The notes beneath the pieces were generated by a model. It made no database searches. It was not told the origin of the DNA and saw only the letters and a program-made list of their open reading frames with translations. A DNA stretch of 64,000 bases, taken from IMG/VR virus record IMGVR_UViG_3300050821_022567, positions 1 through 64,000 of that record; one strand, 5' to 3'. The stretch is from a virus. Each line of letters begins with the position of its first letter. Position 1 is the first letter of the stretch. This document shows positions 3,834 to 40,394 of this stretch, one piece after another. The translations under genes were made by a program, and so were the position numbers.

Positions 3834-5138
3834 TCATTGATACGCGCCAGCAATCAGTCCGCCCACAAGGCCCGAGGTCATGACCTCGGCATCGTTGTGA
3901 ACCGCGACCAATTGGGAGCCACCCATGCTCCCGCGGAACTGGTTGAAGAACTCGCGGATCACGAAGCCGCCGGACGCCTGGCCGTCGGCGAGGCCGTTCG
4001 CGGCGTTCCACCGGAAGGTGTAGCTCGTCGCGATGTCGTCCTGCGAGGTCGGCGGCATCTGGTCCGGCTGGCGGATCAGGATGCAGCTCGTGCCCCACAT
4101 GAACGTGAGCCCGCCGCCGTTCGGCGAGTAGTACTTCATGCGGCCGACGTAGATGGGCGGCAGCTCGAGGAGCCCGGCCATCGCCTCGGGGCCCGGGATC
4201 GGCGCTGCGCCAATCTTGTACGTGATGTACTTTTGGACCGCGGGGTTCCGCTGGAAGGCGTGCCAGAGCGGCTCCGCCATGATGATGCCGGAGATCTCAC
4301 CGAGCGACTGCTCGATGCGGCCGTGCAGGTCCTTGATCGGGTCCGAGCTCCCGCCGCCGTCCCACTGGAAACCGGCGCCGAGGGTGACGACGTTGTTCGA
4401 GTTCCAGTTGCCGGCCGTCGTGAGGAGGTTCGCGACGCGGAGCTCCCGGCGCATCAGGAGCGCGATGAGGACGCGCTTCAGGGTCGCCTGCCGGATCTTG
4501 AGCGGCGCGTCCGCGTTCGCCTCGACCTGCGTCGGGACGAAGCCGCCGAGCGCGAACTCCACCGTGGAGAACGGCGTGTTGGACAGCCGCGGGTTGACCT
4601 CGGGCACCTGCGCGCCGCCGGCGCCCATGATGGGCTCGACGAGCTGGAAGGCGTCCTTGTCGGAGAAGATCCAGTACTTGTCCGACTGCTTGTTGACGAT
4701 CACCGGGGGCGAGCCCATGTCGGCGATCGGCTTGAAGTTCCGGTAGCCGCCCGCGAAGTTGGGCAGGCCCGACTGGATGTGGACGTCGCTCGGGCCGAGG
4801 TCCGCGAACTGCGCGGAGCGCGCGCGCTCCGCGAAGTTGATGCTCGAGGGGGGCTGGTAGCCCGCCATGCTGAAGGCCTGACCTCCGCCTTTGCCGACGG
4901 CGCCGAGGGTGTTCAGCGCGTCGAAGCCGCCGCGATAGGCGTTGCCCATCAGCTGGAGCGACTCGCCGTGCATCCAGTCGGCGCACATCTTGTGGATGGT
5001 TTCGTCGCGCGTGTCGTCCTTGACCGACCACTTTGCGAGCTGGTTGCCGGCGGCGTCGTAGACGTAGCCGTTGTTGAAGTCCATGTGCGTCGCGGTCGGG
5101 AACGCGGCGCTCGTAAACTGGATGACTTGAGCTCGCAT
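3834..5138 (-). CDS. Major capsid protein
   Basis: 434 aa from the ATG at 5136-5138, which has GGAGATC just upstream; an in-frame start 30 codons earlier lacks a ribosome site. The protein has an N-arm, a Gly-rich region near 90-110, long beta strands and a conserved-looking C-terminal block with GGGLTFMWGTSCILIRQPD, fitting an HK97-fold capsid subunit of about the usual length. It follows the protease/scaffold and cement genes, exactly where Mu-like phages place the coat protein (gpT position). It likely assembles on the scaffold encoded at 5892-6527 and is trimmed by the gpI-like protease. Confidence 0.8.
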   Translation of the reverse strand: MRAQVIQFTSAAFPTATHMDFNNGYVYDAAGNQLAKWSVKDDTRDETIHKMCADWMHGESLQLMGNAYRGGFDALNTLGAVGKGGGQAFSMAGYQPPSSINFAERARSAQFADLGPSDVHIQSGLPNFAGGYRNFKPIADMGSPPVIVNKQSDKYWIFSDKDAFQLVEPIMGAGGAQVPEVNPRLSNTPFSTVEFALGGFVPTQVEANADAPLKIRQATLKRVLIALLMRRELRVANLLTTAGNWNSNNVVTLGAGFQWDGGGSSDPIKDLHGRIEQSLGEISGIIMAEPLWHAFQRNPAVQKYITYKIGAAPIPGPEAMAGLLELPPIYVGRMKYYSPNGGGLTFMWGTSCILIRQPDQMPPTSQDDIATSYTFRWNAANGLADGQASGGFVIREFFNQFRGSMGGSQLVAVHNDAEVMTSGLVGGLIAGAYQ

Positions 5139-5254
5139 GTGATCTCCGTGGTGAGGGATGAGGGCGTGGCTGTCCGACCGCGGAGGGGTTCGCTCCGACT
5201 CGCGGAAAACGGCGCGCCCTGCCGACAACGGCGAGCGCAGTGAGGGGTGAGGTT

Positions 5255-5295
5255 CCTCGGCGCGCGGGCCTTTCGTCCCGCCGCGCGCACCGAGG
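5255..5295 (-). terminator. Strong GC hairpin between cement and capsid genes
   Basis: CCTCGGCGCGCGGG (5255-5268) pairs with the CCCGCCGCGCGCACCGAGG arm (5277-5295) across a short loop. It lies in the 169-base gap between the cement gene and the capsid start. There is no T-run after it on the minus strand, so it is as likely an RNA-processing or attenuation site as a terminator. Confidence 0.4.
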
Positions 5296-5307
5296 ACGAG
5301 AAGTGCT

Positions 5308-5760
5308 TTAGACCGCGACCTGGCCCGCGCTGAGCATCACGAGGATCTGGTCGCCCGCGGCGCCGGCCTGCGTGAGCGCAATACCGAGGACGACGGCGGC
5401 CGAGGCGTACGTCTTCACGTTGCCCGGCGTCGTGTTGTCGGCCATCACCTGCGCGTTGACGTTGATCGCCGCGGTGGCGATGCAGACCGCGAGCGGTCCA
5501 AAGAACCGAACGCGCCCCGCGGTGCCAGGCGTTCCCGCGGCGGCGCCGGCCTTGATGATCTCGAGCGTGACTCCGACGCAGCGGACGCCGCCGCCGGACG
5601 GGAGGATGACGCCGAGGCCGTCGATCGTTTGCGAGGCGGAGTTGTAGTAGGTCGTGTCGATCTGGACGAGGAAGTTGGCGGGGATGTCCGTGCCGCTGTA
5701 GTTCGCGACCGGCATGTCGAGGTCGTAACCGTTCTCCGCGATCTGCAGATTCAGAGCCAT
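5308..5760 (-). CDS. Capsid cement (head decoration) protein, DUF2190-like
   Basis: 150 aa, small and beta-rich, ending ALTQAGAAGDQILVMLSAGQVAV. The pattern of a Gly-rich centre (ILPSGGGVRCVGV), an NVKTYASAAVVLGIALTQ block and the AAGDQI-L-L end is typical of the DUF2190 / capsid-cement family that binds the outside of the capsid shell. Start ATG with GGAGATCC upstream. The gene sits between the scaffold/protease and the major capsid protein, the standard place for decoration proteins. Confidence 0.75.
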   Translation of the reverse strand: MALNLQIAENGYDLDMPVANYSGTDIPANFLVQIDTTYYNSASQTIDGLGVILPSGGGVRCVGVTLEIIKAGAAAGTPGTAGRVRFFGPLAVCIATAAINVNAQVMADNTTPGNVKTYASAAVVLGIALTQAGAAGDQILVMLSAGQVAV

Positions 5761-5865
5761 GGGGGGATCTCCGGTGTGAGGGACAGAGCGCGGCCTCCCC
5801 GTTCGAACGCGCCTATCGCGTTCTCAGGCTCGGTCCCCGCGCGGGGGTTCTTGCAGTGAAGGGAG

Positions 5866-5886
5866 CGGGGCGCGCGAGGCGCCCCG
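5866..5886 (-). terminator. Hairpin directly after the protease/scaffold stop codon
   Basis: CGGGGCGC (5866-5873) and GCGCCCCG (5879-5886) form a perfect 8-bp stem with a 5-base loop, six bases beyond the stop codon of the 5892-9125 gene on the minus strand. A second perfect palindrome, CCCCGCGCGGGG, lies at 5835-5846. Neither has a clear T-tract, so partial termination or transcript stabilisation is as likely as full termination. Confidence 0.4.
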
Positions 5887-5891
5887 TCGGT

Positions 5892-6527
5892 TCAGACGGC
5901 GACGTCGAGGGCGAGGTATTCCTTCGCCGCCTTGATGAGCTGCTGCTCGCTCATCCGGAGCACCATGGCCTGCGCCTCGCCGAGCGAGACCCGGCCCGTG
6001 CGCGCGATCGCATGGGAGAGCGCGACCTGATCGATCTTCACCTTCTCGGGGTCACCGACGCGGGCGACCGTGGGCTCGCGGGTGTTGCCGCCGGCGACGA
6101 TCGTGCGGCCGAGGTGTTGCTTGTCCTTCGGGACCTTCGGGTAGTACGCCGCGAACGCCGCCGGGCAGTTCGTGCGGTACTCCGTCAGCTGGGCGCGCAT
6201 CTCTTCCTTCGCGCCCTTCGTGTCGGAGTAGAAGGCGATCGCGTCGGTCACGTCCTGATCGATCGTGGCCTTCGCGTGCTCGTCGAGAAGGACCTGCTGG
6301 TCGGCCAGCTTCTTTCGAAGCGCCGTGAGCTCCGCATCCTGGAGCGAGAACTTCGTCGTCAGGTCGGTCGCCGCCTTCTCGGCCGCGGCGCGCGCGGTCT
6401 TCTCCGCCGCGAGGTTCTGCTCGCTGAGCGTGAGCTTCTGGGTGACCTCGGAGAGGTCGGTGCTCGCCTTGACGAGCTTGGTCTGAGTCTCGCTGAGGAG
6501 CGTCGTCACCTTGTTCTCATCGCTCAT
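5892..6527 (-). CDS. Nested scaffolding protein (Mu gpZ-like), internal start within the protease gene
   Basis: In Mu the scaffold Z is made from an internal start in the same frame as the protease I. Here an in-frame ATG (6525-6527) is preceded by GGGAG eight bases upstream, giving a 211-aa product that starts MSDENKV and is almost entirely charged helix (residues 10-110), ending in a small helical tail. This is what a scaffold needs: self-association, capsid contact, and removal by the protease. The arrangement is seen directly; use of the start is inferred. Confidence 0.5.
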   Translation of the reverse strand: MSDENKVTTLLSETQTKLVKASTDLSEVTQKLTLSEQNLAAEKTARAAAEKAATDLTTKFSLQDAELTALRKKLADQQVLLDEHAKATIDQDVTDAIAFYSDTKGAKEEMRAQLTEYRTNCPAAFAAYYPKVPKDKQHLGRTIVAGGNTREPTVARVGDPEKVKIDQVALSHAIARTGRVSLGEAQAMVLRMSEQQLIKAAKEYLALDVAV

Positions 6528-9125
6528 GGACATGTCTCCCGTGGATCCGTCGAGGTCGCCCTCGTCGGAGGTGTTGAGGCCGTCGGGAGACCCGCCGGCG
6601 TGGTACTCGAGTTCGTGTTCGCGGATCGCCGCGTCGATGAGCTCTTGGACGATGTCGAACACGCCCTCGTCCCACTTCGCCCCGGGGGGCGCGTTGACGA
6701 GGTCGCGGAGTCCAAAGCAGTACTTGGCGAGGCTCGTGCCCTGGTGCATCCCGTTCGGGTCACCGCCGCACGCCGCGAACTTGTCGCGCAAATTGTCGAG
6801 GTGCTCGGAGCACTCCGCCGCCGGCGCGAGCTCGTGCAGACCGAAGATCTGTTTGATCTTCGGCATGTACTCGTGGCTTGCGTGCGCGAAGCCCGCGCGC
6901 GTAGACATGAGCGACAGCTGCCGCGGCGCGGGCGTCGTCGCCGTCTCCTTCTGGTTCTCGCTCGCGACGAGGCGCGCGAGGTCCAGGAACGGCTGGTTCG
7001 TGAGTCCCGCGGACGAGAGGCGCGCACCGATCGGCTCGCCCGTCACCTTGTCCTTCGCCCCAAACCGGATCGCGGGCGAGATGCCCTGGTACTCGCCCGA
7101 CCGGATGTAGCCGCGCGCCTTCTCGCCCCACGCGACGTGGCCCCAGAGGTGGCCGCGGTCGTCGAGCCGGAGGTCGTGGATCCAGCCGCACGCGGGCGTC
7201 CCGTCGACCGGGATGTTCCCCGAGGCCGGGTCCTGCTCGGACGCGTGGTTGAAGTCGATCGGGATGTTGCGGTTCGGGTTCTTCGCTTTGTCGGCGTAGA
7301 AGTTCCGCACCATCTCGGCGAAGACGCCGGGGGTGAGATTGATGTCGCCGGCGGGGTGCCCCTTGTAGTGGCCGGGCGCGCCGAGCTCGATCCAAACCTT
7401 GCGGTCCGTCTCGGACATCTTCGCGGCGGCGATCGTCTCCTCGCTGAGAGAGATGATGTCGCCGATCGCGCGGGGTCCAAGCTGGCTCATGAGAGATCGC
7501 ACGTGGATATGCCCGCCCTTTCCGAGCTCGCCGTGGATACGGACGCGCCCGCCGCCGGTCTTCTTCGGCGCGTACTTGGATTGGACGCCGAGCTCCCGCG
7601 CGCGCCGCGCGATGTTGCGCTTCGCCTCGCGGTACTTCGCGCCGCTGATCGCCCCCTTGCTCTTCTCGCCCTCGAGCCGCGCCGCCGCGTTGTGCACGTG
7701 GGTCGCGTCTTCGATCGGGTACTTCTTCTCCTTCGGGAGGGCGAAGTGCTCCTTCGGGATGCGCTTGCGAGCTTTGGCGGTGAGGACGCTCATCTGCTTG
7801 GGCTCGGTGGCGGGTCCACGGCGGTAGCGCGCGCTGCCGGAGGTGACGTGGACGTCGCCCGGGCCGATGTCGGCGAAGCCGTGCGCGAGGTCGAACGCCC
7901 CCAAGTCGAGGAGGTGCTTGACCGTCGCGCCGTACAGCCGCGCCTGCGCGAGGAGGTCGCCCGGCCGCATCCATGCGGTGCGCGTGTTCGGCTCAAGCGC
8001 CTGCGCGTCGCCGGTCCAGCCGCAAACCCGGAAGACGGAGACCTTGCGGCCGTCGGTCGGCGACTTGATGTCGCAAACGTGGATGCACCCGGCGTTGACG
8101 CTGTTCGGGTCGGTCTTGAGCGCCAGCGCGGCAGCGATACCGGTCTCCTCGCGGAGTTCTCGGATCGCCGCCTTCAGCGCGTCCTCTCCCGGATCGACGA
8201 GCCCGCCTGGGATCGCCATCTCGTGGGGCGGCTCCGGGCGGGAGACCGTGAGCACCTCCCCCTGGACGTTGACGACGATCGCGAGCGCGGCGTCGCCCTC
8301 GCGCCAGCGCCGTTCCTCTGCGTCGGAGAATGGCGCTCCCGCCGCGGCGTAATGTCGGTCGTACGCGCGCTCGACGGCCGATTGCACCTGACCGATCCAA
8401 AGCGGACAGCTCGGATGATGCACGCCCGAGAAGACGCCGACGCCGCGCATCCCGAACGGCTTCTGACCATCGTGCCACGCGAAGTTCTTGCAGCGCCCGC
8501 AGGAGACCTGCTCGCGCGAATACTCGCCGAAGCCGCGCGTCGCCACGTTCGTGGGGTGCTCGTCGGTCGCTCCGCCCTCGTCGAACGGCTTCGACGGATC
8601 GGACCGGGACGTGTGGTGCTTCGACGAGCCCTTCTTCTGGGCGCTATGCAGATGCGTCCAGGGACCCTCGGGGACCGGGACCTTGCAGATGAACGCGAGT
8701 ACCGGCCTGCCGAGCAGCTCGCAGGCGAGCGTGCGGTGGTGACCGTCGATGATCTCCAGCTTCGGGTTGCCCGGCCGCTGGACGAGGACGACGGGCTTGT
8801 TCTTCTCGTCCGCGAGCTTCTTCGCGAAGTGAGCGACTTTGCCGTCGGTGCTGGCCGTCCACGAGTCGCGTGTGGAGAAGTCGATCTGGCTGAGATCGAC
8901 TTCGACCGGACCGCGCCAGTGCCCCGCGAGCACCCACGCCAGGTCGCGCGCCGGATAGTCGTCGAGTAGCTGCTCGTAGACTACGCGCGCCGGATGCGCG
9001 TCGGGGCGCGCGTCCGCCATGAGGACGGCGCGGTGCTCATTCGCGAGCGCCCGCTCTTCGGCGCAGGCGACGAAGGTGTCGTCCGGCCACACGAGGGACG
9101 CGGCGACGATTTGCGGTCGCGTCAT
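5892..9125 (-). CDS. Giant fusion: ParB-like domain + Nudix hydrolase + Mu gpI-type capsid protease + scaffold
   Basis: 1077 aa. Residues 70-150 hold a ParB/sulfiredoxin-like domain with IIDGHHR (125-131). A Cys/His patch (CGRCKNF...HHPSC) lies at 209-240. Residues 280-400 are a Nudix domain whose box fits the consensus exactly (G308, E314, R322-E323, E326-E327, G329). Residues 446-530 resemble the DUF6582 element seen before some phage proteases. Residues 550-725 match Mu gpI proteases (IDFNHASEQDP, GYIRSGEYQGISPAI). The rest is a charged coiled-coil scaffold. Mu gpI is about 360 aa, so this is unusually long. The ATG has only a weak ribosome site. Confidence 0.8.
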   Translation of the reverse strand: MTRPQIVAASLVWPDDTFVACAEERALANEHRAVLMADARPDAHPARVVYEQLLDDYPARDLAWVLAGHWRGPVEVDLSQIDFSTRDSWTASTDGKVAHFAKKLADEKNKPVVLVQRPGNPKLEIIDGHHRTLACELLGRPVLAFICKVPVPEGPWTHLHSAQKKGSSKHHTSRSDPSKPFDEGGATDEHPTNVATRGFGEYSREQVSCGRCKNFAWHDGQKPFGMRGVGVFSGVHHPSCPLWIGQVQSAVERAYDRHYAAAGAPFSDAEERRWREGDAALAIVVNVQGEVLTVSRPEPPHEMAIPGGLVDPGEDALKAAIRELREETGIAAALALKTDPNSVNAGCIHVCDIKSPTDGRKVSVFRVCGWTGDAQALEPNTRTAWMRPGDLLAQARLYGATVKHLLDLGAFDLAHGFADIGPGDVHVTSGSARYRRGPATEPKQMSVLTAKARKRIPKEHFALPKEKKYPIEDATHVHNAAARLEGEKSKGAISGAKYREAKRNIARRARELGVQSKYAPKKTGGGRVRIHGELGKGGHIHVRSLMSQLGPRAIGDIISLSEETIAAAKMSETDRKVWIELGAPGHYKGHPAGDINLTPGVFAEMVRNFYADKAKNPNRNIPIDFNHASEQDPASGNIPVDGTPACGWIHDLRLDDRGHLWGHVAWGEKARGYIRSGEYQGISPAIRFGAKDKVTGEPIGARLSSAGLTNQPFLDLARLVASENQKETATTPAPRQLSLMSTRAGFAHASHEYMPKIKQIFGLHELAPAAECSEHLDNLRDKFAACGGDPNGMHQGTSLAKYCFGLRDLVNAPPGAKWDEGVFDIVQELIDAAIREHELEYHAGGSPDGLNTSDEGDLDGSTGDMSMSDENKVTTLLSETQTKLVKASTDLSEVTQKLTLSEQNLAAEKTARAAAEKAATDLTTKFSLQDAELTALRKKLADQQVLLDEHAKATIDQDVTDAIAFYSDTKGAKEEMRAQLTEYRTNCPAAFAAYYPKVPKDKQHLGRTIVAGGNTREPTVARVGDPEKVKIDQVALSHAIARTGRVSLGEAQAMVLRMSEQQLIKAAKEYLALDVAV

Positions 9126-11797: not shown

Positions 11798-13405
11798 CTA
11801 ACGCTCGGCTAGCGGCGATTCGTAGAGCTGAATCGGGTCCTCCAATTCAGTTTCGTCGTCATCGCCCGCGAAGCCGCGCTTGCGCCCCTGCCAGATCGAC
11901 AGCGCGAGCGAGTCGGCGAGGTCCGGGCTGCGCCCGATGCGGCTCTTCACGTCGTCTTTCGACTCGACTTGGTAGCGGCCACGCGCGTCGAACGTGTACG
12001 TCGGGTCGAGAAGTTCCTGCTCAAGGGCCGGCTGCGCGTCGAGGACCCCCTCCTCGTCCAGCCATTCCTGGACCCCGATCGCCAGCTGCGACCGTAGATT
12101 GTGGAAGCGCGAGTCGTCGTCCGCACGCTCGGAGACGTTGACCTCAATGACCGTGATGGTGAACCCCTTGGGGACGAGTCCCCGCCGGCGGCGATCGTTG
12201 GCCACCTTTCGGAACTCGCGCGCCGTCCGTCGAAGTTGGTCGGCGACCCCGCCACCGACGCCGATGACGTCGATCTTGACGTGGACCTCCTCGCCGTCGA
12301 ACGCGTGCTCGCGCGCGACCGCGACGACGCGCGACGCGACCGAGACCGTGTCGCGCCGGTCGAACCCGTCGGCGTCCTTCCTGCCCTCGGCGCTCGGGTC
12401 CTTGCCGATCATGACGTGCGGGTAGACGCGGGGGCCGCGGCGGGGGGTGATGACCGACTTGTCGTCGCCGAAGCGCGCGACGTCGACGCCGAGGTCGAGG
12501 TCGTATTCGCTGCGCCAACGCTCCTCGTCCTCCGGGGTCGCCGCGGCCGCTCGCGCCGTCGCCTTCTCGAGCGTGACGAGCGAGACGACGTTGTTCGCGC
12601 CGCTCGCGGGGAAGTTCCCCAGTACGCGGACCTGATAGCTGAGGCTGTCACGGCCCCACTGCTCGAGTCGGCGCCGCGTGAATTCCTTGTCCGCAAGGCC
12701 CTTGATCCCGGTCTCGGATGCCTCCTCCCCCGAGAGGGTGAAGAGCTTGAAGAACTGCCGCTCCGCGTGGAACGCCCGGTAGAACCGCCCGCTCGTCCGG
12801 GTCGGGTTGCTCGACATTACGAGGCGCGCCTTGCCGGCGCGGTTCCCCTCGATGGCCTCGAACATCGGGTCGCCAATGCCGCTGGCCTCGTCGGCAAGCC
12901 AGAGCATCTCGGGCGACGAGATGCCGGCCATCGCCTCCGGTTTCGCCTTGGCGAGCCCCTTCGCTTCGCGTCCATCCGCGAAGCGAAGCCCGGTGCGGTG
13001 GTCGATCGCGAGCTCGCCGCCGAGGAGCGCGCGGACGCGCGGCGTATAGAGCCGCGTCATCTCCTTCCAGAGCGTGTCGCGGATCGAGTCGTCCGTCGCC
13101 GACGTCATGATGACGCGGGCGCGTTTACGCGTGGCGACGAACCAGAGCGCCGCGCAGATGAGCAGCGTCGTCTTGCCGGTCTTCTGCCCGCTCTTGATCG
13201 CGACGTCGAGGTTGTCGCGGATCGCTTCGAGGATCTCGGCCTGGCGGTGCCAGAGCGTGACCCCGAGGATATCGCGCGCGAACCCGACCGGGTCGTCGTA
13301 GTACTTCGCGAAGAGCTCGGGCCCCTTCACTTGTCGCGCGGCGCGACGCTTCGCGGCCACCCGCGCGAAGGTCGGCTTTGGGCTGAACGTCGTCCTCGTT
13401 CGCAT
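11798..13405 (-). CDS. terL: Terminase large subunit (ATPase and nuclease)
   Basis: 535 aa. This motor cuts concatemeric DNA and pumps it into the prohead. The N-terminal ATPase has a Walker A-type KSGQKTGKTT at about 71-80, a Walker B MLWLADEA at 167-174 and a coupling motif region with MSSNPTRTSG near 200. The C-terminal RNase-H-like nuclease has LGVDVARFGDD near 312, KIDVIGVGGGVADQL and a final SPDLADSLALS acidic motif, so all three catalytic Asp positions are present. Length is typical. It partners the small subunit immediately upstream. Confidence 0.92.
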   Translation of the reverse strand: MRTRTTFSPKPTFARVAAKRRAARQVKGPELFAKYYDDPVGFARDILGVTLWHRQAEILEAIRDNLDVAIKSGQKTGKTTLLICAALWFVATRKRARVIMTSATDDSIRDTLWKEMTRLYTPRVRALLGGELAIDHRTGLRFADGREAKGLAKAKPEAMAGISSPEMLWLADEASGIGDPMFEAIEGNRAGKARLVMSSNPTRTSGRFYRAFHAERQFFKLFTLSGEEASETGIKGLADKEFTRRRLEQWGRDSLSYQVRVLGNFPASGANNVVSLVTLEKATARAAAATPEDEERWRSEYDLDLGVDVARFGDDKSVITPRRGPRVYPHVMIGKDPSAEGRKDADGFDRRDTVSVASRVVAVAREHAFDGEEVHVKIDVIGVGGGVADQLRRTAREFRKVANDRRRRGLVPKGFTITVIEVNVSERADDDSRFHNLRSQLAIGVQEWLDEEGVLDAQPALEQELLDPTYTFDARGRYQVESKDDVKSRIGRSPDLADSLALSIWQGRKRGFAGDDDETELEDPIQLYESPLAER

Positions 13406-29477: not shown

Positions 29478-29936
29478 TTACCCCTTCAGCATCTCAACGA
29501 CGCTCGTTAGGCGCTCTTTCTCCGCGACAAGCGGTCCAATCTTCTCGTCGATCTCCGCGATGCGCTCCTTCGCATTCAAGACGATCGCCTTCGTCGTGCC
29601 CGAAAGACCCGCAAACGCCGCTCGCTCTTCTTTGCGCGAGAGCACCTTGTTGGCCCGGACGTCCGCCGGTGTTTGGACGCGACGCTTCCTTGCAACACGC
29701 ACCTTTGGCGCTCGGGCGGGCGGGGCAGGCGGCGCCTCTCCGCCAAGAGCGGGCCTTCGACCGCCAGTCAACTTCGCGCGCTTCACGAGTCCGCGCTTGC
29801 GCAACAGATAGATGGTCGTGTCGACCGCCGATGCGGTCGTACCGAGCTTCTCGGCAATCTCCTTCGCCGTCCCTCCCGCCTCGTACGCGTCCAAGATCGC
29901 CTGCTGTTTCTCCGTGAGCATTACCTCGTCTGCCAT
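29478..29936 (-). CDS. HTH protein, alternative separate gene at the end of the long frame
   Basis: The internal ATG at 29934-29936 has GGAGGAAG just upstream, a better ribosome site than the long frame's own start. Product: 152 aa with an HTH (LTEKQQAILDAYEAGGTAKE, LGTTASAVDTTIYLLRKRGL), a basic linker and a C-terminal coiled coil (KERIAEIDEKIGPLVAEKER). It may be the true gene here, either instead of or in addition to the fused frame. Confidence 0.5.
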   Translation of the reverse strand: MADEVMLTEKQQAILDAYEAGGTAKEIAEKLGTTASAVDTTIYLLRKRGLVKRAKLTGGRRPALGGEAPPAPPARAPKVRVARKRRVQTPADVRANKVLSRKEERAAFAGLSGTTKAIVLNAKERIAEIDEKIGPLVAEKERLTSVVEMLKG

Positions 29937-31775
29937 GGCTTCCTCCGTCGGTTGTGGATCGTTCGTTGGTTCTTCGGGTAGTTCGACGACCTCCGCCGCC
30001 CCCTCCTCCGGGCATAGGAAGACGCGCGCCGGTGCGGCTACTCCACGCTCATGAGCGCGCTGACTTCCGCGCTCTGACCTCCCAGCAATCTCCTCAGATC
30101 GGATTTCCTCACCAGGAGCTTGCTCTCGACCCGCGGCTGCACGACCTCGTGGTTCCCCTCTTCCGCGAAGACCAACGACTGCATGTGAAACGTCACGAAC
30201 TCGCCGTCCCGCGTTCGGCTCTGCGACGCGGTCAGCGCGACCGCCACTCGAATCGGCTCCATCGCTCTTCGCCTCCTTTGCCTTCGGTTCCACGATCTGC
30301 GCCCCCTGCGTCCGACTGAAGACGAGCACCTTCGCCTCGCGCAGACCTTGAAGGAGCACGCTCACGCCCGCGCGGCGCGACTTGTCGGTCGACCCTTCGA
30401 CGCCGCAAAGATCCGCGATCTCCAGCATCGAAGGACCGGAGCCGCGCTCCTCCCACGACTCCCGGATGAAGTGGACCGCCTGCGCCGCGCGCGGGCTCAG
30501 CGGAACGCCGTAGAGGATCTCGAGCGCGGACCCGTCGTGCGCGCGCCCCCGCTTCTCGAGTTCCAGCTTCTGCAGTTGCGCCCAGACCCACTCGGACTCT
30601 GCGTCCGCGTAGCCTTCCGTCTCCTCGCCTTCCCCGAAGCGTGGCAGGCGCCCGGCGCTGTAGAGCGGCCGGCCGGCGCGCACGTCGTCGAGCTCGTCGG
30701 CATCCTCCGCCGACCTCGGCGCGGGCGCCGGCGGCGCCTCGTCGGCCTCGCCGCCGGCCCCCCCGATCCCGAGCCCCTCATACGTGCCACGCTCGGCTTC
30801 GGCGAAGGCCTCGAGCCGTCGCTTCGCCCGCGGGCTCGCCTTGAGCCGCGCCAGCGTCTTGTACTCGATCTGGCGGATCCGCTCGCGCGTGACGTCGAGT
30901 TGCTTGCTCACTTGGTCGAGCGTCATCCCCCCCTGGTCGGCCAGGTCGAGCGAGCAGGTATGCGGCAAGTCCCACGGTTCCTTGTCTGGGAAGTTCAGCT
31001 GGATGCCGCCCGTCGGCAAGACGTCGAGGCCGAGGTGATGGCGGCAGCTCGCGAAGGGGCACGGGCGCGCCTCGTTATGGCCTCCGGGCAGGCAGTCCTC
31101 TCGACGCTCCGGGCGACGGACGCGAGGGACCGGCGCATCGCGATCCGCGTCGTGCTCGTAGACGGTCGCCTCGGCGCCGCCCGCCACCCTCGCCCGAGCG
31201 CCCGCGATCGCCGCGTCGAGCCTCGCTCCGCTGAGAGTCACGGGCGGTGCCGGCACCCGTCTCTGGTAGGAGCCGCGTTTCGACTTCTCGCGCTTCACGA
31301 GCCCGCGCGTGCGCAGCACCCAAAGACACGCGCTCACCGCCGCAGGCGTCGCCCCCACCGCTGCCGCCACGTCGACCGTCCGCATGCCCTCCTCGTAAAG
31401 CTTCAGGATCCGCGCCTGCTTCTCGGTCAGCTCCCTCGGGTTCTTCTTCTCCACCGGCGGCCCAGGCACCGGGTCCGGCATCTCCGCCACCTGCTTGGCG
31501 ATCGACGGTCGCTCGACGGGAGCGGTCCGCGCGAGCCGTTCCTCGAGCCGATCGATCTTCCTTCGGACGCGCTCGAGTGGGTCGAGCGTCGCCTCGCGGT
31601 TCCGCTCCTCCGCCAATGTCGACGCCGCACGCCTCGAGATCGCGGACCGGCGCTCCGCGGCCGCTCGCCTTGCGTTGTCCTGGGCGAACGCCTCGAGACG
31701 CTCCGCGCTCCACTCGGAGACGTCTGGTTCCTCCGCTGGCGGCGGCTCGGTGTAGATCGGGAGTCGGCGAATCAA
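29478..31775 (-). CDS. Sigma-region-4-like regulator in a long fused frame with two related HTH modules
   Basis: One open frame of about 765 codons (TTG 31773-31775, TTGA overlap). Near 31430-31270 is an HTH module (LTEKQARILKLYEEGMRTVD). Near 31115-30835 comes CLPGGHNEARPCPFASCRHH and then a sigma-70 region-4-like helix pair (MTLDQVSKQLDVTRERIRQI). Near 29920-29760 is a second HTH module very like the first (LTEKQQAILDAYEAGGTAKE). Between about 30262 and 30040 the frame reads as Arg/Gly-rich noise and a separate gene lies there, so it may really be two or three genes. Likely a transcription regulator. Confidence 0.55.
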   Translation of the reverse strand: MIRRLPIYTEPPPAEEPDVSEWSAERLEAFAQDNARRAAAERRSAISRRAASTLAEERNREATLDPLERVRRKIDRLEERLARTAPVERPSIAKQVAEMPDPVPGPPVEKKNPRELTEKQARILKLYEEGMRTVDVAAAVGATPAAVSACLWVLRTRGLVKREKSKRGSYQRRVPAPPVTLSGARLDAAIAGARARVAGGAEATVYEHDADRDAPVPRVRRPERREDCLPGGHNEARPCPFASCRHHLGLDVLPTGGIQLNFPDKEPWDLPHTCSLDLADQGGMTLDQVSKQLDVTRERIRQIEYKTLARLKASPRAKRRLEAFAEAERGTYEGLGIGGAGGEADEAPPAPAPRSAEDADELDDVRAGRPLYSAGRLPRFGEGEETEGYADAESEWVWAQLQKLELEKRGRAHDGSALEILYGVPLSPRAAQAVHFIRESWEERGSGPSMLEIADLCGVEGSTDKSRRAGVSVLLQGLREAKVLVFSRTQGAQIVEPKAKEAKSDGADSSGGRADRVAEPNAGRRVRDVSHAVVGLRGRGEPRGRAAAGREQAPGEEIRSEEIAGRSERGSQRAHERGVAAPARVFLCPEEGAAEVVELPEEPTNDPQPTEEAMADEVMLTEKQQAILDAYEAGGTAKEIAEKLGTTASAVDTTIYLLRKRGLVKRAKLTGGRRPALGGEAPPAPPARAPKVRVARKRRVQTPADVRANKVLSRKEERAAFAGLSGTTKAIVLNAKERIAEIDEKIGPLVAEKERLTSVVEMLKG
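30038..30262 (-). CDS. Small hypothetical protein overlapping the long frame, 74 aa
   Basis: ATG at 30260-30262 with AAAGGAGG upstream. It reads MEPIRVAVALTASQSRTRDG and ends SAEVSALMSVE, a normal-looking mixed protein, whereas the long frame through the same bases is Arg/Gly-rich. I therefore think this is the real gene here. Function unknown. Confidence 0.55.
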   Translation of the reverse strand: MEPIRVAVALTASQSRTRDGEFVTFHMQSLVFAEEGNHEVVQPRVESKLLVRKSDLRRLLGGQSAEVSALMSVE

Positions 31776-36345: not shown

Positions 36346-36626
36346 TTCCTTCCGGGGGGCTTCAATGGGAGGTTGCGGAGAACCGCGGGCGTCTCCGGCG
36401 GCGCCGGCTTCTGCTCGGGATGGGCCGCCTGATACGCGAGCGCGCCGCGCACGAACTGCTCCATTTTCGGCGTGAACTTCTTGTCCTTCACCCCGGGGTC
36501 GGTCAGCCGGCGGAGCATGTCCTCGAAGATCTCGCGCTTCTCCCGATCGAGGTAGCCGTCGAGCGCGCGGCTAAGGAGCGCACACCCCTCCTGCAGCTTG
36601 TCCCGGTCCATCGACGCGCCGTTCAT
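36342..36626 (-). CDS. Hypothetical protein, 94 aa
   Basis: ATG at 36624-36626 (ATGA). Reads MNGASMDRDKLQEGCALLSR and continues as a helical protein (REKREIFEDMLRRLTDPG) with a Pro/Lys-rich end. A second Met five codons in is also possible. No motif recognised. Confidence 0.5.
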   Translation of the reverse strand: MNGASMDRDKLQEGCALLSRALDGYLDREKREIFEDMLRRLTDPGVKDKKFTPKMEQFVRGALAYQAAHPEQKPAPPETPAVLRNLPLKPPGRK

Positions 36627-37036
36627 GACTCGGCGCTCCCGGGATCCAGTTCCGGTTCCGGCTCCCAACCGACACTCTCGCCGCCTACCGGATTAGCCAC
36701 TACTCCCGTCGAAGATCCGTCGGGCATGGCGGGGTCGACGCCGACCTCCATGCCGTTGATGAAGAGGCGGCGCGACGTCGTCGTCTCGTCCGCGGGAACG
36801 CCCGAGTGCCCCTGCGGCAGCACGCGCCCGGCCTTCCTCGCGCGCTTGAGCGCGGCGGCCTCGAGCCGGGAGACGTCGTCCTTCGAGACGCCAAGCTGCT
36901 CCGCGCGGACGCGCTCGGCTACGCGGGCGGCATCGCGGGGCGGGACGCCCTTCGCCTTCATGACCTCGCGGACCTTGCGCTCCAAGGTCGTGCGCTCCGA
37001 GATCCACGCCTGGTCAGCCTTCTCTCGACCGATCAC
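36623..37036 (-). CDS. Hypothetical basic HTH-like protein, 137 aa
   Basis: GTG at 37034-37036, three bases after the AAA+ gene's stop, with GGGAGG upstream. The first 75 residues are basic and helical, with a possible HTH (VPPRDAARVAERVRAEQLGV, SKDDVSRLEAAALKRARKAG). The rest is Gly/Glu/Pro-rich. A near copy of the GGCTAA element lies inside its 3' part. Being next to the AAA+ ATPase makes it a possible adaptor or substrate, which is speculation. Confidence 0.5.
   Translation of the reverse strand: MIGREKADQAWISERTTLERKVREVMKAKGVPPRDAARVAERVRAEQLGVSKDDVSRLEAAALKRARKAGRVLPQGHSGVPADETTTSRRLFINGMEVGVDPAMPDGSSTGVVANPVGGESVGWEPEPELDPGSAES
36683..36698 (-). promoter_or_regulatory. GGCTAA-N4-RTAGCC element, copy 5 (one mismatch)
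   Basis: On the minus strand GGCTAATCCGGTAGGC: identical to the consensus except GC for CC at the end of the right arm. It lies 57 bases upstream of the 36342-36626 start, inside the preceding gene. The weakest of the five copies. Confidence 0.35.
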
Positions 37037-37039
37037 GAT

Positions 37040-38737
37040 CTACCTCCCTGCCAAAACAATCGGCGAGGCCTGCTTCGCCCCCGCCGCCCTCCACACCGCT
37101 TTCTCTCCCTCGGGAAGGCTCGCCACGATCTCGTCGACCGCCTCCTTCACCCCCTTGTGCTTCGTCTCCTCGATGGTCTGGTCGACAGCCCACTCGAAGT
37201 CGTTGAGCAGCACGACGCGCTTCTCTTTCTTCGAAGCGATGCAGCGCCGGAGCGCGTGCTGCGTCGCCTTCTGTACGATGCCTTCCAGCATCGCGCCGCT
37301 CGTCGCATCCGCGAGCGTGAAGCGCCGCCGCTCTCCCGGCATCTCGATCATCCCGAGCACGTGACGGTCGGCATAGACCATCTCCGCCACCCGCTCCGCG
37401 ACCTCCGCCCGCGGCAATTCGAGCGGGCGCTTCGCCCCCAGGTGATGCTCGACGATCTCGATCGCCCCTCGCTTGTCCGGCCGCGAGACCTTCACGACCA
37501 CGTCGATTCGCCCCTCGCGCAGCACCGCGGGGTCCATGTCCTTCGCCCGGTTCGTCGCGAGCAGGAAGAACGCGCCGCTGTCCTCGAGCCCGTCCATTTC
37601 TGCGAGGAACGTTTGAACGACCGCGACGTCGGCGTTCCCGCCGTGCGACTCGCGCCGCGTGCGCGCCATGAAGAGACTCTCGCACTCGTCGATGAAGACG
37701 AGCTGCGGGTACTGATGCACGCGGAAGTGCTCGCGGGCATTCGAGACGAGTCGTCGGACGTTCCCCTCCGAGGACCCGATCCACTTGTCGATGAGCGATG
37801 GCCCGCTCACGTACGCGAACCCGGTCGCGCTCGGCCCCTTCCCATAGAGATCGGCGATCGCCGTCGCCGCCGCCTTCCCGAGGAGGGTCTTCCCACACCC
37901 CGGAGGACCGATGAGTGCGGCCCCCTTCGTCCGCTTCTTGTCGAAGATCGCGTACAGATCCTTGTGGCGGATCGGCTCTTCGATCGCCTCGCGCAGCGCG
38001 CGCACGGCGTCGGCCTGCGCCTTCACGTCCTTCCACGTCACGCCGGTCTCGCCCGTGAAGACGAGCCCGTCCTCCTGCCGCGGCAAGAGCTCGACGGCGA
38101 CGGCCATCGCCTTATCGAGCACGACGCGATCTCCCGCCTTCACTTCGTCGGGCAAGTCCTTCCCGCGCCGAACGACGCAGCGCCCTTGTTGGACCTCGAC
38201 CTCGAGCGATCGTCCGGCCAGCTGCCGCACGGTGGCGATCGGCCCCGTCGCGTCGTCCTTCGCCCGCCCGATGTTCCGGAACCCGAACGACGTGTCCGGG
38301 TTGAGCACGATCCGATCGCCGCGCTCCGCGTTGATCCCGATGAGCCGGGTCACCCGCCGCTGGCCGCCGTGCTCGATCTCCACCAGCCCCTTGCTGATGA
38401 CCTGCTGCACCTCCGCCACGGGGCCGATCCAGTCGATGTCGATGTCGCCGACGATCGCCCCATTCTGCGCGATCACCCGCACGATCTGCCCCGGCTTCAA
38501 CGAAGTGCGCGGATGGTCGGCGAGGATCATCTGCCCGTTCGGGAGCTGGAGGGTGACCTCCTTCTCCTCGACCCGATAGACCATCGCCGCCTGCGTGGGG
38601 CCGCTGCTCTTCGACAGCTGCCGCACCCGGTCGTCGAGATACCTCACCGTCTGCTTGAGCGTCTCGAGCTCGGAGACGCCCGGCGCCAGGAACGGCCGGT
38701 TGTAGATGGGGGCGCCGATAAAAATGCCGTCGCTCAT
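37040..38737 (-). CDS. Proteasome-type AAA+ unfoldase (ARC/PAN/Mpa-like)
   Basis: 565 aa. Layout: an N-terminal coiled coil (about 22-45), two or more OB-like beta domains (50-220), then one AAA+ domain. The AAA+ part has VTWKDVKAQADAVRALREAI, Walker A GPPGCGKT (277-284), a KWIG pore loop 1 (318-321, like KFIG in PAN), Walker B LVFIDE (346-351), sensor N396 and arginine fingers R407/R410. PAN and ARC unfold proteins for the 20S proteasome. The C-terminus ends VLAGR, so the HbYX or GQYL docking motif is missing, and no 20S subunit is in the window. Start ATG has AGGAG upstream. Confidence 0.8.
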   Translation of the reverse strand: MSDGIFIGAPIYNRPFLAPGVSELETLKQTVRYLDDRVRQLSKSSGPTQAAMVYRVEEKEVTLQLPNGQMILADHPRTSLKPGQIVRVIAQNGAIVGDIDIDWIGPVAEVQQVISKGLVEIEHGGQRRVTRLIGINAERGDRIVLNPDTSFGFRNIGRAKDDATGPIATVRQLAGRSLEVEVQQGRCVVRRGKDLPDEVKAGDRVVLDKAMAVAVELLPRQEDGLVFTGETGVTWKDVKAQADAVRALREAIEEPIRHKDLYAIFDKKRTKGAALIGPPGCGKTLLGKAAATAIADLYGKGPSATGFAYVSGPSLIDKWIGSSEGNVRRLVSNAREHFRVHQYPQLVFIDECESLFMARTRRESHGGNADVAVVQTFLAEMDGLEDSGAFFLLATNRAKDMDPAVLREGRIDVVVKVSRPDKRGAIEIVEHHLGAKRPLELPRAEVAERVAEMVYADRHVLGMIEMPGERRRFTLADATSGAMLEGIVQKATQHALRRCIASKKEKRVVLLNDFEWAVDQTIEETKHKGVKEAVDEIVASLPEGEKAVWRAAGAKQASPIVLAGR

Positions 38738-39042
38738 CGAACCCGTTCTCCTGTCGCTTCCACTGCGTCTCGCTCGTCGTGATCCCGGACGAACCGCTCG
38801 AAGGACAGCGGCCCGAGCGGCTTTGGGCAGCCGTGCGACCCGTCGCTCGCGCCGTAGGCGACCGCGCGCGCGAGGCCGACCTTCCCGCTTAGCTCGAAGT
38901 CCTCCAAGGCGATGGCGTGCGTCACCCGTTCGATGACCTTGCGCCCGTTCACAACGCCGCCGCACCGCGCTTCCGTATACGCCTCCAAGTAGCAGAGGTA
39001 CCGGAGACGTGCCGCTTCCTCTTCGGCTCGCTCGTCGCTCAC
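38734..39042 (-). CDS. Hypothetical protein, 102 aa
   Basis: GTG at 39040-39042 (GTGA). Reads VSDERAEEEAARLRYLCYLE and continues with a helix-rich middle (GRKVIERVTHAIALEDFELS) and GASDGSHGCPKPLGP. It overlaps the start of the AAA+ gene, so both are co-translated. Adaptor function is possible but not shown. Confidence 0.5.
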   Translation of the reverse strand: MSDERAEEEAARLRYLCYLEAYTEARCGGVVNGRKVIERVTHAIALEDFELSGKVGLARAVAYGASDGSHGCPKPLGPLSFERFVRDHDERDAVEATGERVR

Positions 39043-39348
39043 GCTGCCCACCCTCTCGCGATGATCGTGCACCCCACCGGGATCTCCCCCCTCGTCCGCA
39101 CCACCCGACCCGACAGGCCGATCGGCAGCGTGAACCGCACGGTGTCCTTGATCGCCGGCAGCCCGCACGACGTCCTCGGGCTCGACGTCCGCGTCGCCGA
39201 CCAGATATGTCGCGGGACTCTCCCGCTCCCCGCGCTCGTCGGTCTCCTCCTCGAGCCTCCGCGTCGCGCGCCGGATCTCCACGATGTCGCGGAAGAAGAG
39301 CGCGCCGAAGAGGAGGACCGTGATGCCGAGCGGGATCCAGGGAGTCAT
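39039..39348 (-). pseudogene. Single-pass membrane protein with an apparent frameshift
   Basis: ATG at 39346-39348 opens MTPWIPLGITVLLFGALFFR, a clear membrane helix, and stays protein-like for about 65 codons (ATRRLEEETDERGERESP, YLVGDADVEPEDVV). After that the frame becomes Gly/His/Arg-rich noise, while a neighbouring frame ending at 39039 reads AIKDTVRFTLPIGLSGRVVR. The length 310 is not a multiple of three, so one base must be gained or lost if it is one gene. Confidence 0.35.
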
Positions 39349-39400: not shown

Positions 39401-40033
39401 TCACGGGACTTCTTCCCAGTCCGTCGCGAGCACAGAGGACGAGCTGGGGCTCCACGGCTTGAAGTCGCCGTCGATCGAGTCGAACGCCATCAGGTACGGC
39501 CCGAACTTGCACACCGTCCCCACGGGCAGGCCCGTGGCCTTCGCGGTGTTCGCGTTGATCGGGACGCCATCCGGATAACCGGGTTGCTGGGCCACGTAGG
39601 ACCCCGTGGGCCAGCTCGACCGACGGAGGCGACGTCCCGCCCGGAGTCCGTCGATCGCGACGGCGAACCCGAAGGTGAGCGGCTTCGCTTCCGGATTCGC
39701 AAGGCCGTCCGTACCCTCGAGCGCGAGGCTCTCGCGCAGCGTCTCGATCTGCTCGACCTGCTTGCCGATCGTATAGGCGTGGCCCCGCACGAACGACCCG
39801 AGAAGCGCTGCGAGCCGCCGCACCGCGAGGTCTGCCGTGACGTCGGTGCCCGCCGCCGGGATACCGTCGATGTGCGCCGTGAAGACGTCCTTCCCGTCCT
39901 CCTGGCCGACCGTGACGATCACGTCCGCGGGCTCGACCATCGGCCCGGCTTCCGCGGGGAGCGTGAGGCGCTCGACCTGCGGCGCCCCGTCCATCGCCGG
40001 CGCGACGCCGGCTTCGCTCGTCGTGGCGCTCAC
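39401..40033 (-). CDS. Tad2-like (DUF2829) anti-Thoeris domain with an N-terminal extension
   Basis: 210 aa, GTG start. Residues 1-115 are a helical/beta extension of unknown role. Residues 118-210 match DUF2829: LTFGFAVAIDGLRAGRRLRR, GYPDGVPINANTAKATGLPV, FGPYLMAFDSIDG and a final PWSPSSSSVLATDWEEV. Phage Tad2 proteins of this family bind and hide the signal molecule made by the Thoeris ThsB sensor. The conserved W, P-W and DW positions are present. Typical Tad2 is about 90 aa, so the fusion is unusual. That it inhibits Thoeris here is inference. Confidence 0.75.
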   Translation of the reverse strand: MSATTSEAGVAPAMDGAPQVERLTLPAEAGPMVEPADVIVTVGQEDGKDVFTAHIDGIPAAGTDVTADLAVRRLAALLGSFVRGHAYTIGKQVEQIETLRESLALEGTDGLANPEAKPLTFGFAVAIDGLRAGRRLRRSSWPTGSYVAQQPGYPDGVPINANTAKATGLPVGTVCKFGPYLMAFDSIDGDFKPWSPSSSSVLATDWEEVP

Positions 40034-40034
40034 G

Positions 40035-40394
40035 TCAGGACTCCCGCACCGCGAGGATGTCTTCCTCGCGCACGATGCCGAACTTCTCCCCGTCGACCGG
40101 CACGTCCTGCAGGGAGTGCTTGCTCAGGTAGACGACGTCCCCCTTCTTCACGCTCGGGGGAACGACCGCGCCGTTCGCGAGCACCTTCCCGGTACCGACG
40201 GCCATCACCGTCGCGACGCCGCCTTTCTCCTGGGCGGCTTCGGGAATGATGATCCCGCCCTTCGAGACCTTCTCGGGGACCTCCCGCTTGACGAGCACGC
40301 GGTCGTGGAGCGGACGGAAGTGGAGCGGCGGCTCCGCGTTCGTGACGGGCGGGTCGTGCGGCGGGATGTGGGCCTTGTCGTGTCCGTGGCTCAT
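40035..40394 (-). CDS. groES: GroES-like co-chaperonin (Cpn10)
   Basis: 119 aa. Caps the GroEL folding chamber. The core LHFRPLHDRVLVKREV, the mobile loop KVSKGGIIIPEAAQEKGG (43-60, binding GroEL through its hydrophobic end) and the GDVVYLSKHSLQDVPVDGEK block are all present. The first 25 residues, rich in His and Pro, extend beyond a normal GroES of about 95 aa. ATG has AGGAGACG upstream. Phages such as T4 (gp31) carry their own co-chaperonin to fold their capsid protein; the same use is likely here. Confidence 0.85.
   Translation of the reverse strand: MSHGHDKAHIPPHDPPVTNAEPPLHFRPLHDRVLVKREVPEKVSKGGIIIPEAAQEKGGVATVMAVGTGKVLANGAVVPPSVKKGDVVYLSKHSLQDVPVDGEKFGIVREEDILAVRES

Follow-up and report, generated by a model that had tools for sequence, protein, structure and literature searches.

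Proteasomal ATPases have been described from cellular organisms, in which they gate the 20S proteasome, and the locus described here raises the question of what a virus does with such an ATPase, i.e., whether its product feeds a protease or works alone. The window, by which we mean the whole stretch of 64,000 nucleotides analyzed, corresponds to bases 1 to 64000 of a linear virus record of 69,763 bases (IMGVR_UViG_3300050821_022567) that also encodes a Mu-type portal, a terminase-like gene, and a DnaB helicase. On its minus strand, positions 37040 to 38737 encode a 565-amino-acid ARC-like AAA+ ATPase (protein P0001), identified by its open reading frame (ORF), profile matches, structure model, and phylogeny. 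This ORF has the top coding score in its neighborhood, and the position given in the initial annotation proved exact, with a strong coding signal. Another contig (L006, IMGVR_UViG_3300021478_000088) carries a terminase-like protein 100% identical to that of the window and, by coordinates, reaches past the low end of the record. A host assignment based on portal matches in Myxococcota was dropped, their identity being only 25 to 36%.

The family of the ATPase was addressed with profiles, a predicted structure, and trees. The Pfam matches of P0001 comprise AAA (1.9e-27) and PF16450, the OB domain of proteasomal ATPases (2.5e-6). Among NCBIfam models, ARC/Mpa scored highest (245.9 bits), ahead of PAN (137 bits), Cdc48 (124 bits), FtsH (100 bits), and CdvC (94.6 bits), a score which stays under the TIGR03689 equivalog cut-off (504.75 bits; control protein L133, 871.8 bits). 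An AlphaFold2 model built from 34 sequences reached a mean pLDDT of 82.5, and its 30 best Foldseek matches in the PDB were all Mpa chains (best E value, 9.4e-31), followed by proteasomal Rpt subunits. In a maximum-likelihood tree of 76 AAA+ domains, with Vps4 and spastin themselves left out, ARC and the phage proteins split from PAN, Cdc48, and FtsH at 100/99, and 36 phage or phage-like sequences including that of the window formed one clade (98/93) beside cellular ARC (75/87). A second tree with closer relatives recovered the phage group at 96/93. The window sequence sits on a long branch (2.43) in the 76-domain tree, and its grouping with cellular ARC was not rejected by the AU test (P = 0.151). 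Altogether, profiles, model, and phylogeny support an ARC-type ATPase belonging to a phage-only clade beside cellular ARC/Mpa. Of the ARC/PAN-like character first proposed, the ARC half thus stands on profile, structure search, and tree, while the PAN half does not (137 versus 246 bits, separate clade). The exclusion of FtsH and Cdc48 held, both giving weaker profile scores and lying apart in the tree; moreover, P0001 has a single AAA+ domain by profile and model, versus two in Cdc48, and profile searches of P0001 gave no match to the C-terminal zinc protease domain of the FtsH type. A place in another AAA+ clade such as spastin/Vps4 found no support either: the Vps4-type profile CdvC matched far more weakly than ARC (94.6 versus 245.9 bits), and OB folds are predicted in P0001.

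A viral scan with the single P0001 sequence returned no relatives, and alignments were needed to find them. The resulting clade is virus-only, large, and apparently undescribed, the window ATPase being one of its members. Our literature search, which did not extend to bioRxiv or most subscription papers, found nothing on proteasomal ATPases encoded by phages, on phage proteins resembling Pup, or on DUF1360 in phages, and the novelty is thus provisional. A survey of 224 jumbo phages discussed AAA+ proteins of the BCS1, MoxR, and Clp types and did not mention the proteasome or Pup (PMC7824862), and a 2008 survey of pupylation did not mention phage (PMC2588565). Three sequences were not taken as phage. 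L030 was left out as probably cellular, adjoining L107 in the tree. L005 (MT835496.1), labeled 'Bacteriophage sp.' in GenBank, is over this stretch actinobacterial chromosome, with an ARC followed by a Dop/PafA-like gene. L087, a metagenome-assembled contig labeled Nanoarchaeota, was excluded because it lies next to cellular ARC; its ARC-like ATPase lies at 4971 to 6596, its genome bin also holds 20S-type proteins, and the contig may be mis-binned or that of an archaeal virus. A phage-type ARC homolog was also seen at 7713 to 9005 of the 128-kb Methylobacterium indicum plasmid pVL1_2 (L171), which carries phage-like replication, RNR, and MazG genes and is probably a phage-plasmid.

The coiled coil, OB-like domains, and single AAA+ domain reported initially were all recovered by sequence, profiles, and model, with the correction that the OB domains number three. 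The coiled coil spans residues 24 to 41 (38615..38668, minus strand, as for all features of this gene) within a predicted helix of residues 15 to 43; it is short, with heptad positions L24-L27-V31-L34-V38-L41, and is followed by a linker proline, P47, kept in 13/15 phage and 13/19 cellular-type aligned sequences. OB domain 1 covers residues 49 to 100 (38438..38593), with five strands modeled at moderate confidence (pLDDT of about 56 to 72), OB domain 2, the extra copy, covers residues 102 to 160 (38258..38434), and OB domain 3 covers residues 162 to 222 (38072..38254), with the PF16450 match at 167 to 219. The model folds three beta-barrels at residues 49 to 100, 118 to 158, and 167 to 218. 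The profile of OB domain 3 also matches residues 102 to 160 (2.8e-9), and the two domains align with a score of 56, whereas the best of 2,000 shuffles reached 46; read from this alignment, OB domains 2 and 3 are duplicates, and the predicted third OB domain arose by duplication. Among relatives, the spacing from the proline to Walker A falls into three groups (about 115, 160 to 196, and 230 to 248 residues), fitting one, two, or three putative OB domains, respectively. One relative, L195, was modeled with two, and the OB profile recognized none in the Brevundimonas-type subgroup. As Mpa has two consecutive OB domains (PMC8755798), the number of OB domains varies within the phage clade.

The large and small AAA+ domains (residues 230 to 500; 37238..38050) match PF00004 at 1.9e-27 and are modeled mostly at a pLDDT of >90. 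They contain Walker A (GPPGCGKT, residues 277 to 284; 37886..37909), pore loop 1 (KWIG, residues 318 to 321; 37775..37786), Walker B (FIDE, residues 348 to 351; 37685..37696), and the arginine fingers R407 and R410 (REGR; 37508..37519). Seven residues are invariant in 34 aligned sequences, namely, K283 and T284 of Walker A, D350 and E351 of Walker B, N396, and both arginine fingers. The pore-loop aromatic is W319 in K318-W319-I320-G321, the equivalent of K340-F341-V342-G343 in Mpa, whose KFVG loop it matches (PMC8755798). The KWIG loop had been read as a signature of proteasomal ATPases; it is in fact the general aromatic-hydrophobic-glycine pore loop of AAA proteins, so that this argument for the family is invalid. 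The region C-terminal to the lid is short and variable, and the model places two short strands where Mpa has its beta-grasp domain.

As described initially, the C-terminal tail (residues 545 to 565; 37043..37105) has neither GQYL nor HbYX and ends in ..PIVLAGR. No GQYL or HbYX tail was found in the phage-clade members (0/36), which have no common C-terminal motif. The lack of a 20S subunit, first observed for the window, extends to its whole 69.8-kb record, in which pup and pafA/dop were not found either; the host itself may hold a 20S. Moreover, PF00227 (20S/HslV type) or Pup ligase matches were found in 0/43 phage or phage-plasmid records, and Pup ligase in 0/23 phage records partly overlapping this set (Mycolicibacterium control, 9e-187), while PF00227 is present in 13/14 genomes with cellular-type ARC. 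Isolate hosts of phage-clade relatives are the alphaproteobacteria Brevundimonas and Methylobacterium. Alphaproteobacteria are not known to have the 20S or pupylation.

With neither a docking tail nor a protease or ligase encoded by the phage, the product would be released, which argues for an unfoldase or disassemblase rather than a proteasome gate. We therefore favor, with a probability of roughly 0.62, a protease-independent ARC-type unfoldase/disassemblase; one of the readings offered initially, a protease-free enzyme of this kind, is supported by the absence of tail and 20S, and we infer the protease-free action itself. We propose a model in which six copies of the gene product would assemble into a protein translocase of the ARC/Mpa type that is driven by ATP. 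The short N-terminal coiled coils at the mouth would catch the target or an adaptor, the three stacked OB rings would provide a rigid channel for entry, and the AAA+ ring would draw the chain through by its W319 pore loops. The product would then leave the ring unfolded, or detached from its complex. A small Pup-like Cys-containing neighbor would probably serve as the adaptor in many relatives, where its binding presumably involves no ligation; in the phage studied here, that role may fall to another protein, e.g., the 137-amino-acid downstream product.

Other phages carry ARCs that keep a docking tail. Four loci (L018, L020, L022, and L028) encode an ARC with a GQYL or GMYL tail that falls inside the cellular ARC clade, and the two tested passed the ARC cut-off (L020, 631 bits; L022, 617 bits). 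L018, L020, and L028 have a common gene, whose L028 copy matches the terminase large subunit; this terminase-like gene and a GQYL/GMYL-tailed ARC of the cellular clade were likewise seen together on the phage contig L029. The L022 contig (record G031) is T4-like, with an SbcC-like protein, a UvsW-type helicase, UvsY, and a tail tube; besides its GQYL-tailed ARC (7530 to 9125), it encodes a true Pup at 12491 to 12670 (5.5e-20), which ends in GGE (C-terminal sequence, ..EEFVKSFVQRGGE), and its 24-kb fragment shows no Pup ligase or 20S. A true Pup next to a GQYL-tailed ARC suggests that this phage may hijack the host proteasome, and by their sequences the GQYL/GMYL phages look like users of a host proteasome; nothing suggests such use by the clade of the window.

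These tailed ARCs bear on a different reading, which we consider unlikely, in which the ring would engage a peptidase of the host (20S, HslV, Anbu, or ClpP) through a contact other than GQYL/HbYX and redirect its proteolysis toward substrates of the phage's choice. Foldseek and profiles do put the window ATPase beside a true proteasome gate, and ARCs of Nitrospirae, Verrucomicrobia, and Armatimonadetes that have no GQYL occur in genomes carrying PF00227 proteins, so that absence of the motif is not strict proof of absence of docking. However, the phages that apparently use a proteasome keep GQYL or GMYL, whereas the 36 members of the phage clade have no common C-terminal motif, and the post-lid region is short and variable, with only two short strands modeled in place of the Mpa beta-grasp.

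Directly downstream of the ATPase gene, where relatives encode their Pup-like partner, lies an orphan gene of 137 amino acids (36623..37036, minus strand). Its product contains no Cys, shows no detectable helix of the Pup-like kind, and gave no relatives in a viral scan. Of the two small flanking genes initially proposed, this one stands and the other, an ORF at 38734 to 39348 (minus strand), is not a single gene, as codon-position GC indicates a frame switch near 39150 to 39200. This ORF is probably composite, and the ATPase-adjacent gene is probably a 102-amino-acid gene with a GTG start (38734..39043, minus strand), which overlaps the ATPase start and has no family match. The switch may mean either that small genes overlap here or that the gene for a membrane-anchored protein is frameshifted, in reality or through faulty assembly. 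A 210-amino-acid protein with a Tad2-like (Thoeris anti-defense 2-like) C-terminal domain (PF11195, 1.3e-11) is encoded at 39401 to 40033 (minus strand), immediately upstream of the ATPase gene group. The GroES (co-chaperonin 10) noted 1.3 kb upstream was found at 40035..40394 (minus strand; PF00166, 8.9e-28) in the same gene run, as context only. Farther away, 29478 to 31775 (minus strand) encodes a 765-amino-acid protein with an unusual string of differing helix-turn-helix matches along its length (Sigma70_r4, LexA, MarR, and TrmB).

The gene run, which includes GroES, the DnaB helicase, and a VRR-nuclease-like gene, could point to a chaperone for virion assembly or replication that works with GroES and the other genes of the run, with dedicated phage substrates and no Pup-like adaptor. 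Replication genes surround the Methylobacterium relative as well, and the window is without a Pup-like partner. Nevertheless, the neighbors of the window gene are not kept beside its relatives, and the genes conserved there encode small and membrane proteins, not replication or head proteins, which makes this alternative decidedly improbable. Despite the long branch and the AU result, it appears very improbable indeed that the gene derives from a cellular ARC by decay or recent capture, with its tail lost and no function maintained, as the ATPase residues are all intact, the coding signal is strong, an OB domain has been duplicated and kept, and the phage clade is recovered in both trees.

In the relatives, a small Cys-containing ORF starts no farther than about 130 bases from the stop of the ATPase gene at 32 of 43 OB-bearing phage-clade loci, a set that includes related phages and whose counts are not independent, against 11% for a comparable small ORF at random positions of such loci. 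In the comparison of small partners with other ORFs, the background includes non-coding ORFs. Many small partners have a common layout, with a basic or Gly-rich N terminus, a DD(L/V)L..(L/I)D helix, and a Cys-rich end, as in L209 (MSAQEQIKKRSHKGGGGGGSNDFDGLGLEMAVIPGVDEVLRNLDSDIKNVGGLINRTQERINQRQDRRPSHNCEC). A single profile-profile comparison with 29 cellular Pups aligned the helix over 18 columns (HH-suite probability, 66%; E = 5.7e-5), and the mean Pup-HMM score of the real small partners exceeded that of all 200 shuffled sets; the Pfam Pup model gave no match to the small partners even at an E value of 10. The shared helix, the HMM scores, and the gene position hint at a resemblance to Pup. 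Pup itself engages Mpa with its helix, which binds to the coiled coil, and with its disordered N terminus, which threads the pore (PMC8755798). Next in order, 21/43 loci encode a membrane protein with a CPxC..HW motif, of which the six-frame translations of these loci (1.4 million residues) contain only 22; one such protein matches DUF1360 at 2.1e-6 and another only weakly. The module of ATPase, small Cys protein, and CPxC..HW DUF1360-like membrane protein is found in L193-L212, L010-L016, L035-L050, and L038. Two tandem small proteins were seen at L200, L206, L208, and L212. Searches of the window and of the remaining 5.8 kb of its record yielded neither a Pup-like nor a CPxC..HW protein, and the small partner is also missing at the relatives L007 and L196.

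A broader and more tentative proposal, possible but in our estimation more doubtful than probable, is that these phages run a pupylation-like system free of ligase and protease to dismantle host or phage complexes. Its parts would be an ARC-type ring with a variable OB stack, a Pup-like adaptor, and the CPxC..HW membrane partner, and the Cys-rich C terminus of the adaptor, possibly metal binding, would hold targets in place of an isopeptide bond. The window ATPase would then be a derived form in which a third OB ring has been added and the adaptor exchanged.

A large virus-only sister clade with neither 20S, tail, nor ligase would show the ARC motor working alone. If the Pup-like partners are confirmed to be adaptors, recruitment in the style of Pup would occur without covalent tagging, which bears on the origin of pupylation, and phages would be able to dismantle complexes of their choice. 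Since other phages have kept GQYL, and one of them a Pup, the choice between gate and stand-alone unfoldase becomes directly testable by comparison.

Compared with known systems, the window protein is most like Mpa/ARC (TIGR03689; PDB 7px9 and 5kzf), the top family in profile and fold searches, with which it shares a coiled coil, tandem OB domains, a single AAA+ domain, an aromatic-hydrophobic-Gly pore loop, and an SGAM-type lid. It differs in its three OB domains against two, its shorter coil, the absence of GQYL and of an evident beta-grasp, a score under the family cut-off, and a record without 20S, Pup, or PafA. PAN and Rpt1-6 are alike in their single AAA+ domain, OB fold, and coiled coil with linker proline, but PAN has one OB domain, an HbYX-type tail, and a separate place in the tree (100/99). 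The 'proteasome-associated ATPase' of Brevundimonas phage Polewnik/Strzyga (USN16546.1) belongs to the same phage clade and has no docking tail, but it has no recognizable OB domains and other downstream genes. Phage ATPases such as those of L195, L209, and L193 are near relatives in the same clade (36 to 42% identity), with two OB domains or three by another route; unlike the window, their loci encode the small Cys-containing partner and, in most cases, a membrane protein with CPxC..HW. Finally, the ATPases of L018, L020, L022, and L028 are, like that of the window, phage encoded and of the ARC type, but they lie inside cellular ARC and have kept the tail.
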